64,000 bases of DNA from Solirubrobacter pauli (lineage in GTDB: Bacteria > Actinomycetota > Thermoleophilia > Solirubrobacterales > Solirubrobacteraceae). The position numbers and the translations under genes are program-made. The stretch lies in contig NZ_RBIL01000002.1 of NCBI RefSeq assembly GCF_003633755.1, positions 1,054,001 through 1,118,000 of the forward strand, in the 5' to 3' direction. Of the stretch, positions 1 to 3,399 are shown one piece after another (positions within the stretch are counted from its first letter, which is position 1; every line of letters begins with the position of its first letter). The notes beneath the pieces are model-generated. The model ran no database searches. It had not been told where the DNA came from and saw only the letters and a program-made list of their open reading frames with translations.

Positions 1-2574
1 CTGGAAGGGCTGTGCCCGTTCCACGACGAGCGCTCGCCGTCGTTCGGCATCAACCCGACGGAGAAGGTCTACTACTGCTTCGGCTGCGGCGCGGGCGGCG
101 ACGTCTTCAAGTTCGTCATGGAGACGGAGAACCTGAACTTCGGCGAGGCCCTGGAGTCGCTCGCGGAGCGGTACCGCGTGCCGCTCGAGCGCGAGTCGGA
201 GGACCCGCGGGAGGCTGAGCGCCGGCAGCGGCGCGACCGGCTGCTCGCCCTGCTCGAGCGCACGGCGGCCTACTACGTGCGCGTGCTGTGGGAGTCGCCC
301 GAGGCCGAGGAGGCGCGCGCCTACCTGCAGTCGCGTGGGCTCGAGGAGGGTGCGCTGCGGGCGTTCCGGGTCGGGTACGCGCCGGACACGTGGGATCGCG
401 TGGTGCTCGGGTCGCGGAAGGCCGGTTACGGGGAAGGCGAGCTGGTGGCGGCGGGGTTGGCCTCGCGCTCCAGCCGCGGCACGCTGATCGATCGCTTCCG
501 CGGGCGGATCACGTTCCCGCTGGCCGACGAGCGCGGCCGCGTGCTCGGCTTCGGCGCGCGGGCGATGAAGCCTGACGACAAGCCGAAGTACCTCAACACG
601 TCCGAGAGCGAGCTGTTCCACAAGGGGCGGATCGTCTACGGCGCCGATCTGGCCCGCGCCGCGGCGGCCAAGGCGGGGCGCGTGGTGCTCGTGGAGGGCT
701 ACACCGACGTGATCGCGCTGCACCAGGCGGGCGTGCCGGAGGTCGTCGCGCAGATGGGCACGGCGCTGACCGACGCCCAGGTCGACGCGATCGCGCGGCT
801 CGCGCCCAAGGCGTTGTTCTGCCAGGACCCGGACCGCGCCGGCCAGGAGTCGGTCGCGAAGGGGATCGCGGCCCTGCGCACGCACAACAAAGGCCGGTCG
901 ACGCGCGCCGTCGAGTTCCGCATCGTGCGGCTACCGCTGGGCGAGGACCCGGCGGACGTCGTCCAGAAGGCCGGCGCCGAGCGGATGCGCGAGCTGCTGG
1001 AGAAGGCGATCCCGATCGAGCGCTTCGAGGTCGAGCGTGCGCTGGAGCAGCCCGACTCGAGCACGGACGACATGCTCTCCGCCATCAAGCCGATCATCGC
1101 GTCGATGTCGGCGACGCTGCTCCGTGACGAGCTCGTGCGCCTGGTCGCGGACCGCTTCGCGATGCGCCCGGAGCTCGTCAACCAGCTCCTGCAGGCGCCG
1201 GACACCCGGCAGCCGCCGTTCACCGCGCGCTCGCGCGGCGACATGCGCGGGCGCGGCGAGCCCGGCCGCGGCGGCAATCCGCCGCGTGCCGGCTGGACCC
1301 GGGGCGGAGCGGGCCAGCAACGGCCGGCGGGCGGCGGCTACGCCCAGGGCGGCAATGGCCAGGACGGCGGCTATGCCCAAGGAGGGGGCGGACCGCGGCC
1401 CGGAGGCCAAGCGGCACCGCGACAGGCCGGTGCCGGGCAGCACCCGAGCGCGCAGGCGGGCGGCGGGCAAGCGCATACGCAGAATCCGCACCCGGGCGCC
1501 GGTCAGGGGCAGTCGCACCCGGGCGCCGGGCAAGGGCAGACGCACTCGGGCGCCGGTCAGGGGCAGTCGCACCCGGGCGCCGCTCAGGGGCAGCCGCCGT
1601 TGCCGCCGGACGCCGGGCAAGCGCAGCCGCGACCCGCGGCCCCCGATCACGCGCACGCCGCGCAACACGGGCAGCGTGAGGCCGGGGCGGGTCCCGCGGC
1701 TCCTCAGCCGGGCACCGGGGGCGCCGCAACGCCCGCGAACTCGACCGGGCTGGACGCCCACCCGCCGGGCCCGCAGAGCTTTCCGGGCACGTCCGGCACC
1801 GTCGGCGCGCCCGCGGACCCGTTCGCCGATGGGCCGCCTCCGCCCGAGTGGGACGGGTTCTCCGGCGGGGAGGACGTCGACCCGGGGGGATTCGGGTCGC
1901 CTGACGAATGGGCGGACGCTTCGGGAGCCGTCGATCCAGGCCCCGTGGGACCGCCTCCGGGCGCCTGGGAGCAGCCTCCGCCCGCTGGATGGTCGCCGCA
2001 ACCGCCGGCGCAGCAGCAGGGCTGGCAGCGCGACTGGCAGCCGCGCGGTGGCGGTGGCCGCCGGGACCAGCGGGGCGGCGGTCGTGGCGGCTGGCGGGGT
2101 GGCGGCGGTGGTCGCGACCGCGACCGGTACCGGCGCGACGATCCGATCCCCGATCCGATCGATCCCCAGGCTGCGCTGGCGATGCGGGAGCGGCACGAGC
2201 ACGCGTTCCTGGCGTTCTGCATCGCGCTACCCGAGGAAGGCGAGCGACGACTGGCGGACTTCGACGTCGAGGACTACTTCTCCGCGCCGGCGACGCGCCG
2301 GGCGGCGGCGTACCTGCGAGGGCGGCTGCGCTCGCCCACGGCGCATCTTCCCGCGGGCGACGAGAACCTCGCGCGGGTGATCGCGAAGCTCGTGGTCGAC
2401 TCCGGGATGCTCGAGGCCACCTCAGCGAAGTTCGAGCTCGAAGCGCTGCAGCTGGAGCTGCACCGGATCGAGCGGCGGATCTCCAACGCGCGGGTCAGCG
2501 GCGCCGCTGGCGTCAGCGAGCTTGCCGTGGAGCGCCAGCGAGTGCTCAACGAGATCCGCACGCGCCTTACCTGA
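1..2574 (+). CDS. dnaG: DNA primase DnaG (5' end outside window)
   Basis: Primase that makes RNA primers at the replication fork. The reading frame is open from base 1, so the first few dozen residues are missing. Counting from base 1, the CHC2-type zinc ligands are Cys5, His8, Cys26 and Cys29. The Toprim acidic residues are Glu232 in VLVEGYTDV and Asp276/Asp278 in CQDPDRAG. Residues about 714-857 resemble the C-terminal DnaB-binding domain. Between about residues 402 and 714 lies a low-complexity linker rich in Gly, Gln, Pro, His and Ala. With it the protein exceeds 850 residues, against about 600 for typical DnaG. The linker has a tandem repeat and is presumably disordered. The next gene is an HNH protein, not rpoD. 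Confidence 0.97.
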   Translation: MEGLCPFHDERSPSFGINPTEKVYYCFGCGAGGDVFKFVMETENLNFGEALESLAERYRVPLERESEDPREAERRQRRDRLLALLERTAAYYVRVLWESPEAEEARAYLQSRGLEEGALRAFRVGYAPDTWDRVVLGSRKAGYGEGELVAAGLASRSSRGTLIDRFRGRITFPLADERGRVLGFGARAMKPDDKPKYLNTSESELFHKGRIVYGADLARAAAAKAGRVVLVEGYTDVIALHQAGVPEVVAQMGTALTDAQVDAIARLAPKALFCQDPDRAGQESVAKGIAALRTHNKGRSTRAVEFRIVRLPLGEDPADVVQKAGAERMRELLEKAIPIERFEVERALEQPDSSTDDMLSAIKPIIASMSATLLRDELVRLVADRFAMRPELVNQLLQAPDTRQPPFTARSRGDMRGRGEPGRGGNPPRAGWTRGGAGQQRPAGGGYAQGGNGQDGGYAQGGGGPRPGGQAAPRQAGAGQHPSAQAGGGQAHTQNPHPGAGQGQSHPGAGQGQTHSGAGQGQSHPGAAQGQPPLPPDAGQAQPRPAAPDHAHAAQHGQREAGAGPAAPQPGTGGAATPANSTGLDAHPPGPQSFPGTSGTVGAPADPFADGPPPPEWDGFSGGEDVDPGGFGSPDEWADASGAVDPGPVGPPPGAWEQPPPAGWSPQPPAQQQGWQRDWQPRGGGGRRDQRGGGRGGWRGGGGGRDRDRYRRDDPIPDPIDPQAALAMRERHEHAFLAFCIALPEEGERRLADFDVEDYFSAPATRRAAAYLRGRLRSPTAHLPAGDENLARVIAKLVVDSGMLEATSAKFELEALQLELHRIERRISNARVSGAAGVSELAVERQRVLNEIRTRLT
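1489..1596 (+). repeat. 27-bp tandem repeat in dnaG linker (4 copies)
   Basis: Four imperfect in-frame copies of a 27-base unit encode HPGAGQGQS-like nonapeptides: HPGAGQGQS, HPGAGQGQT, HSGAGQGQS, HPGAAQGQP. The 27-base period keeps frame, so copy-number change would lengthen or shorten the linker without breaking the primase. Confidence 0.85.
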
Positions 2575-2582
2575 TTCCGTCC

Positions 2583-2608
2583 GCCATGCGAACTAGTGTT
2601 CGCATGGC
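2583..2608. promoter_or_regulatory. 26-bp perfect inverted repeat containing LexA-box-like core
   Basis: Arms of 11 bases (GCCATGCGAAC and GTTCGCATGGC) flank TAGT. The core CGAACTAGTGTTCG fits the CGAAC-N4-GTTCG form of Gram-positive/actinobacterial LexA boxes. It starts 8 bases after the dnaG stop and covers two of the three candidate ATG codons of the HTH-HNH gene. It could be an operator (LexA, or autoregulation by the HTH protein) or a dnaG transcript hairpin. No T-run follows, which argues against a classical terminator. Confidence 0.6.
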
Positions 2609-3296
2609 TATGAACCGCGAGACGCTCGCCGAGATGCTGGCCGCCGGTCGCTCGATCGAGTCGATCGCTCGGGAGACGGGCAAGGCGCCGTCCACCGTCG
2701 GGTACTGGGTGAACAAGCACGGGTTGGTCTCGCAGCACGCGGCGAAGCACGCCACCCGTGGTGGGATCGAACGCGACCAGCTTCAAGGGCTCGTCGAGGA
2801 GGGGTTGTCGATCCGGCAGATCGCGGACCGCTGCGGGGTGAGTCCCACCACCGTGCGGCATTGGCTGCGTCGGCACGAGCTGCGCACCCAGCCGGCGCGC
2901 TACTCGCGACGAGATGCCCCGAAGCCGGAGCAGCTCCACCGCGAGTGCGAGCGTCACGGCTGGGGTGCGTTCGTGCGGGTGGGCGCCGTGGGTCACTACC
3001 GCTGCGCGCGATGCAACTCAGAGGGCGTGAGTGAACGGCGCAGGCGCTTGAAGGAGATCCTCGTGGCCGAGGCCGGGGGATGCTGCGTGGTTTGCGGATT
3101 CGATGCGTATCTCGGGGCGCTGCAATTCCACCACCGGGATCCCTCGACCAAGGCCTTCGAGGTCAGCGGACGCGGAATCACGCGCTCGCTCCAGCGACTT
3201 CGCTTGGAGGCGGCGAAATGCGTGCTACTGTGCGCGAACTGCCACGCGATGGCGGAGGCGGGGATGCTTGACGTCCCCACTCAGAGTCATCCGTAG
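2604..3296 (+). CDS. Double helix-turn-helix / HNH nuclease-fold protein
   Basis: About 230 residues. Two successive HTH segments (about residues 3-45, with GRSIESIARETGKAPSTVGY, and 55-100, with GLSIRQIADRCGVSPTTVRH) are followed by a Zn-finger/HNH module. CVVC at about 160, FHHRD at about 177 and LCANCH at about 210 fit an HNH fold with Cys4-type zinc ligands. It probably binds DNA and may nick or cut it; the target is unknown. Starts at 2586, 2604 and 2610 are all in frame and none has a clear ribosome-binding site, so a leaderless transcript is possible. All three lie in or beside the LexA-box-like palindrome, which suggests damage-inducible or autoregulated expression. It lies between dnaG and tRNA-Asn. 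Confidence 0.8.
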   Translation: MAMNRETLAEMLAAGRSIESIARETGKAPSTVGYWVNKHGLVSQHAAKHATRGGIERDQLQGLVEEGLSIRQIADRCGVSPTTVRHWLRRHELRTQPARYSRRDAPKPEQLHRECERHGWGAFVRVGAVGHYRCARCNSEGVSERRRRLKEILVAEAGGCCVVCGFDAYLGALQFHHRDPSTKAFEVSGRGITRSLQRLRLEAAKCVLLCANCHAMAEAGMLDVPTQSHP

Positions 3297-3320: not shown

Positions 3321-3392
<72 letters not shown>

Positions 3393-3399
3393 CTTTGAG

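Follow-up and report, generated by a model that had tools for sequence, protein, structure and literature searches.

The window, the whole 64-kb stretch of DNA analyzed here, contains dnaG, a gene encoding a protein with two helix-turn-helix (HTH) domains and an HNH domain, and tRNA-Asn(GTT), in that order; among named organisms, Solirubrobacter species have the loci closest to it. At the start of the HTH-HNH gene, the letters of 2583-2608 read GCCATGCGAAC-TAGT-GTTCGCATGGC. As the first-pass annotation had claimed, this is a perfect inverted repeat with 11-bp arms and a core of the CGAAC-N4-GTTCG form, here CGAAC-TAGT-GTTCG, and the 4-nt spacer TAGT is itself non-palindromic. The palindrome was also said to cover the start codons of the gene, which is correct for ATG 2586 and ATG 2604, both of which lie inside it, but alignment of orthologues points to ATG 2610, 1 base past the palindrome, as the true start. 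A reading of the palindrome as an intrinsic terminator was dropped because no T run follows it. The core, CGAACNNNNGTTCG, occurs as a single exact copy in the window, and the chance of one core site in any given 40-nt stretch is ~8e-5. As an observation on the neighboring gene, dnaG has a long repetitive Gly/Gln/Pro/His-rich insertion (GAGQGQSHP-type repeats; window 1200-2150) before its C-terminal part.

Table 1. Features of the HTH-HNH locus, with positions in the window.
Feature	Position	Strand	Basis or remark
Promoter element of the -26 type, CGTCCG	2578..2583	+	10-nt fixed spacing to the hexamer in orthologues
Inverted repeat, extended 11-bp arms and 4-nt spacer; almost certain LexA operator	2583..2608		Read directly
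LexA box core (LexA binding predicted), CGAACTAGTGTTCG	2589..2602		Identical core 5' of lexA, uvrA, dinB and dnaB; kept in orthologues
-10-like hexamer TAGTGT within the LexA box	2594..2599	+	Same CGTCCG-N10-TAGTGT spacing in other TAGT-class orthologues
Gene for the HTH-HTH-zinc ribbon-HNH protein, 228 aa if started at ATG 2610 (other candidate starts 2604, 2586)	2610..3296	+	Single-copy
First helix-turn-helix, P0001 residues 5-38	2616..2717	+	AlphaFold2 pLDDT 91-95; Pfam HTH matches
Second helix-turn-helix, residues 57-92	2772..2879	+	HTH_38 9.6e-16; AlphaFold2 model
Zinc ribbon, C115..H118..C134..C137	2946..3014	+	All four residues invariant in 31 sequences
HNH domain, G158-G159, C161..C164, H176-H177, C210..N212-C213-H214	3075..3257	+	Invariant or nearly so; PHROG 2255
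tRNA-Asn(GTT), with no second one found genome-wide; the HNH gene's constant partner	3321..3393	+	Orthologue loci

The assignment of the C-terminal domain comes from phage profiles, among which the PHROG 2255 HNH endonuclease matched at 1.9e-26, and from residue conservation. In an alignment of 31 sequences, H176, H177, C161, C206, C210 and C213 were invariant and C164 and H214 nearly so, and N212 was nearly invariant in the first orthologue alignment. Pfam and NCBIfam returned generic HTH matches only, plus an HNH match to the C-terminal part that fell below the cut-off (PF01844, 15.4 vs 21.4 bits). Structural comparison by VIA-align gave a Z of 6.6 to the HTH of DosR and covered the HTH part alone, and PADLOC matches were likewise to short HTH stretches. 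A Foldseek search with the model of the protein found nothing at E <= 0.001; its weak matches to HNH structures (Cap5, Gme HNH nickase, T4 EndoVII and the Cas9 HNH) are compatible in fold and prove nothing.

To place the palindrome among other sites, the core was counted in the 7.1-Mb genome (G000), where 14 sites were found against 4 for the reversed pattern (Poisson P(>=14|4) ~8e-5). Upstream of the only lexA gene, 27 nt from the start codon, stands CGAACACACGTTCG, with the same core as 2589-2602, and recA has a one-mismatch copy of the core, CGCACAGACGTTCG. The SOS-type core proposed in the first-pass annotation is therefore that of the genome's own lexA promoter and, but for one mismatch, of its recA promoter. 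Other core sites lie within ~45 nt of the starts of uvrA, dinB (Pol IV), dnaB, an AlkB-like gene, three small paralogues and a radical-SAM gene of the SplB-like type that appears to contain an intein; these genes were named by reading their translated sequences. Among relatives, the motif was present 5' of lexA in all 25 examined and perfect in 24. The HTH-HNH orthologues were scanned over 150 bp upstream at 35 loci from named genomes. A box with <=1 mismatch was present in 20 (14 perfect) and absent from the scanned region in 15, compared with a rate of 2.3% in control windows, and upstream conservation was similar in a second genome set. The palindrome motif is thus kept upstream of most orthologues, as the first-pass reading would have it.

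Because of the 14 versus 4 sites, the boxes at lexA, uvrA and dinB, the box at lexA in 25 of 25 relatives and the boxes at 20 of 35 orthologues, we infer that 2583-2608 is almost certainly the LexA operator of the HTH-HNH gene, with LexA binding predicted from sequence. The core and spacing are the same as in the Streptomyces venezuelae LexA/SOS box, tCGAAC-N4-GNNCGa, and so is the position 5' of lexA, uvrA and dinB, with one mismatch at recA (PMC9380542). Unlike that box, the one at 2583-2608 overlaps the -10 of an HTH-HNH gene, and the S. venezuelae paper makes no mention of an HNH gene as a LexA target (PMC9380542).

Several other loci met during the scan are recorded here in their own right. 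The dnaB gene (L005) starts 32 nt and the AlkB-like gene (L008) 14 nt after a perfect LexA box. Three related small proteins of about 100-125 aa, sharing 'RLRRAIQAGNL..AAAELG...DALGILL', each begin beside a perfect LexA box (L001, L003 and L006; G000:C1 near 309812, 559810 and 2971601) and form an apparent SOS-controlled family with no function assigned. In three genomes (G212, G107 and G142; loci L271, L272 and L273), a stretch of roughly 1.0-1.2 kb within one open frame interrupts the recA match around profile residue 197 and resembles a RecA intein.

The first-pass annotation recognized the LexA-type box at the start of the gene but missed a second, fixed-spacing element that overlaps it. 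The pattern CGTCCG-N10-[TG]A...T was found in 25/35 orthologues versus 1.9% of control windows, usually a few bases 5' of the start codon, which in the window is ATG 2610. It is better conserved than the LexA box, which in orthologues lies either on the -10 or just 5' of CGTCCG, and it is retained by some orthologues that have no box; neither element was present in the scanned region of 7 of the 35. The same element precedes recA (CGTCCGATGCTGCTCGTAGTTT, 7 nt 5' of the ATG) and lexA (CGTCCGCGAGGGGAGGTACCTT). Variants of it are seen repeatedly among the relatives. Genome-wide, CGTCCG-N10-KANNWT gave 134 matches vs 49 for the reversed pattern, which makes it too loose to define a regulon. At one of the small-protein loci (L003), the box at 1501-1514 has CGTCCG-N10-GAACAT flanks on both strands, a possible divergent damage promoter.

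If transcription is assumed to start ~7 nt after the -10, CGTCCG is centered near -26. The genome encodes a fused PafBC-like protein with two WYL domains and a WCX domain, whose HTH_PafC match is below threshold (26.7 bits vs a cut-off of 32), and this homologue probably activates the CGTCCG-N10-TAGTGT promoter. The consensus of mycobacterial PafBC/RecA-NDp promoters carries the letters TGTC, to which CGTCCG has partial similarity only. The promoter described here differs from the mycobacterial ones in its letters, CGTCCG and not TGTC, and in having a predicted activator. Mycobacterial PafBC acts near -26 (PMC11804915), and RecA-NDp and an SOS box occur together at some mycobacterial genes (PMC8223512). 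The resemblance lies in the element at about -26, its fixed distance to the -10 and its presence at recA and DNA-repair genes (PMC11804915, PMC8223512), and in its combination with SOS boxes at some genes (PMC8223512). Our search of the PafBC and LexA literature on actinobacteria found no study of Solirubrobacterales.

The gene had been described as placed right after primase, and in the window it is; across orthologues, however, the constant neighbor is not dnaG but a single-copy tRNA-Asn gene. tRNA-Asn(GTT) is beside the HNH gene at nearly every orthologue locus, usually 5-60 bp past the HNH stop codon and sometimes in convergent orientation. In one genome (G169), 7.7 kb separate dnaG from tRNA-Asn, and the HNH gene keeps with tRNA-Asn. 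Exactly one tRNA-Asn gene was found in 46/48 genomes and none in 2 by pattern search. In genomes without the HNH gene, tRNA-Asn is usually 41-90 bp after dnaG, and for this reason the dnaG-tRNA-Asn order is probably the older arrangement.

Other relatives also lie beside tRNA genes. Those with other N-termini are found beside tRNA-Lys, several of them with a LexA-type box, and others by tRNA-Asn or tRNA-Pro. Non-redundant viral relatives are in phage tRNA clusters and have a tRNA within 500 bp in 53/63 cases; tRNA density around them is 4.6/kb within 250 bp versus ~1/kb at 2-3 kb. The commonest type of nearest tRNA is tRNA-Asn (17/53). Individual loci are also of interest. One genome (G124, L384) has two HNH relatives, one by tRNA-Asn and one by tRNA-Lys with its own perfect LexA box, and in another (G029, L377, 3369-3445) the sequence of the tRNA-Lys(TTT) by an HNH relative is unusual and Leu-like. 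Two IMG/VR 'viral' contigs (L164 and L165) have the HNH gene by tRNA-Asn; their viral origin was dropped, since with tRNA-Asn at both and dnaG at L165 they are probably misassigned chromosomal fragments.

The tRNA-Asn gene itself varies with the presence of the nuclease gene. A canonical YCGAA anticodon stem was found in 5/24 nuclease-linked vs 17/21 unlinked genomes (p=8e-5) and, within one family, in 3/16 linked vs 17/19 unlinked (p=3e-5), in genomes that are not independent and with the empty loci inspected all from one family. These counts omit one genome (G077) with an HNH remnant and a divergent tRNA; when it is counted as empty, p=3e-4 and 1e-4. The remnant, LLCGNHPREVENGLR, lies by a tRNA-Asn gene with a still-divergent anticodon stem (L331). 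The 21 occupied genomes held 15 types of tRNA-Asn anticodon stem, versus 4 types in 20 for a tRNA-Leu(GAG) control. It is the anticodon stem alone that stands out, as overall divergence was similar for the two tRNAs (0.18 for tRNA-Leu and 0.20 for tRNA-Asn), and tRNA-Asn varies mainly in its anticodon stem and D-arm. With dnaG distance held constant, tRNA distance followed HNH distance (partial r 0.35, p=0.0002); with HNH distance held constant, the partial r of tRNA distance with dnaG distance was 0.03. Just 5' of the tRNA, part of its 5' end was repeated at 20/44 occupied vs 0/15 empty loci, and in the window itself such a copy was not significant. Some occupied loci keep a canonical anticodon stem, including that of the window, whose tRNA is near-canonical. 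tRNA-Lys could not serve as a clean second test because it varies widely in this order. Across related soil actinobacteria, then, the nuclease and tRNA-Asn appear to co-evolve.

Because the gene adjoins the only tRNA-Asn gene and appears to co-evolve with it, the data suggest a "homing" nuclease that is selfish, targets the tRNA and is tied into the response to damage. Our preferred explanation, to which we give a probability of roughly 0.6, is that the gene encodes a free-standing HNH nuclease of the homing type, similar to SegB, that is expressed upon DNA damage, targets the tRNA-Asn gene and is linked to an altered tRNA allele. The regulatory part of this explanation is well supported, and cleavage, target site and homing are predicted. 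LexA bound at 2583-2608 would repress the damage-type promoter by overlapping its -10, and because of this overlap the gene would be silent in healthy cells and induced along with recA, lexA, uvrA and dinB. Upon damage, RecA-driven cleavage of LexA, probably joined by PafBC, would turn the gene on. The two HTH domains would recognize a site in or near the single-copy tRNA-Asn gene, the HNH domain would nick or cut the allele that lacks the HNH gene, and RecA-dependent repair would copy in the nuclease gene together with the linked altered tRNA-Asn. Expression at the time of the SOS response would make cutting coincide with abundant RecA.

A stronger version may be put forward tentatively, as a possibility we would not yet bet on: a natural chromosomal cleave-and-rescue element, in which the nuclease cuts the sole tRNA-Asn gene and carries a recoded resistant copy, the LexA box and PafBC-type promoter time the cutting with recombination repair, and relatives with swapped DNA-binding domains do likewise at tRNA-Lys and in phage tRNA clusters.

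In function, SegB of T-even phages comes closest; it is located between tRNA genes (PMC2988022) and has been implicated in cutting tRNA-containing DNA (PMC13096335). In phage T6, the 3' end of segB and the 5' end of tRNA-Tyr share short homology, through which the segment is amplified by recombination (PMC13096335); short homology to a tRNA 5' end is thus a further likeness. SegB, however, is a phage-encoded GIY-YIG enzyme, whereas the protein described here is a chromosomal HNH protein with tandem HTH domains, beside an essential single-copy tRNA and under LexA-type control. The Mob-type free-standing HNH homing endonucleases of phage T4 are similar in joining HNH to a DNA-binding part and in their intergenic location (PMC2988022), but the DNA-binding part is another one and their known targets are not tRNA genes. 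MSMEG_1275, which is associated with programmed death of Mycobacterium smegmatis, is also an actinobacterial HNH nuclease in a DNA-damage context; it is set apart by an ArsR-type regulator, and the accessible sections of the paper describe no tRNA link (PMC9416677).

The distribution of the gene bears on whether it might instead be a resident of the SOS regulon. A domesticated nuclease, inherited vertically and controlled by LexA for repair, damage-induced death or control of the tRNA locus, would adjoin tRNA-Asn through closeness only. HNH distances correlate with dnaG distances (Mantel r 0.53, 0/2000 permutations), so inheritance is in large part vertical and the nuclease may have a resident function; regulation and catalytic residues are conserved, and DNA repair genes with a LexA link are typical members of the regulon. 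However, the gene is present in only 37/299 genomes of the class and missing from close congeners, with presence and absence differing within one genus and dnaG-tRNA-Asn loci both occupied and empty. In addition, two loci (L099 and L120) are grouped in the HNH tree with 100/99 support and separated by dnaG, relatives lie by tRNA-Lys and within phage tRNA clusters, and the tRNA co-varies. We consider domestication unlikely, and the distribution fits an element that is mostly vertical, frequently lost and occasionally transferred.

The concentration of variation in the anticodon stem and D-arm is what recognition of RNA would predict, and tRNA-Asn is single-copy, which could point to a damage-induced nuclease or toxin of the anticodon type that cleaves tRNA-Asn itself and spares the linked, resistant tRNA. 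Against this, the HNH fold and the pair of HTH domains, which bind DNA, favor a DNA target, and phage relatives sit among many tRNA types, as SegB-type homing nucleases do (PMC13096335); cleavage of the RNA is decidedly improbable. Still less can be said for the palindrome as an autoregulatory operator: it lies at the start of a gene for a protein with two HTH domains, but the same core is 5' of lexA (in 25/25 relatives), uvrA, dinB, dnaB and others, and several orthologues keep the gene without the box. That the palindrome is a functionless product of chance, as the scan of the 64-kb window might allow (no core enrichment, with 3 matches at <=1 mismatch vs 4.0 expected), is hardly credible given the genome-wide enrichment and the conservation in orthologues.

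Taken singly, neither LexA boxes nor homing nucleases associated with tRNA genes are new. In the literature searched, which covered few subscription journals, we found no precedent for a chromosomal HNH gene combined with an essential single-copy tRNA, a LexA/PafBC-type promoter and co-variation. Independently of the homing model, the LexA box and the PafBC-like damage promoter are a gain for Solirubrobacterales. If the model is true, this would be a homing-type element of a bacterial chromosome that sits on an essential single-copy tRNA gene and is driven by the SOS response. It would account for fast change in the otherwise rigid anticodon stem of a tRNA and would offer a tractable system for the dynamics of a selfish nuclease and its resistant allele.
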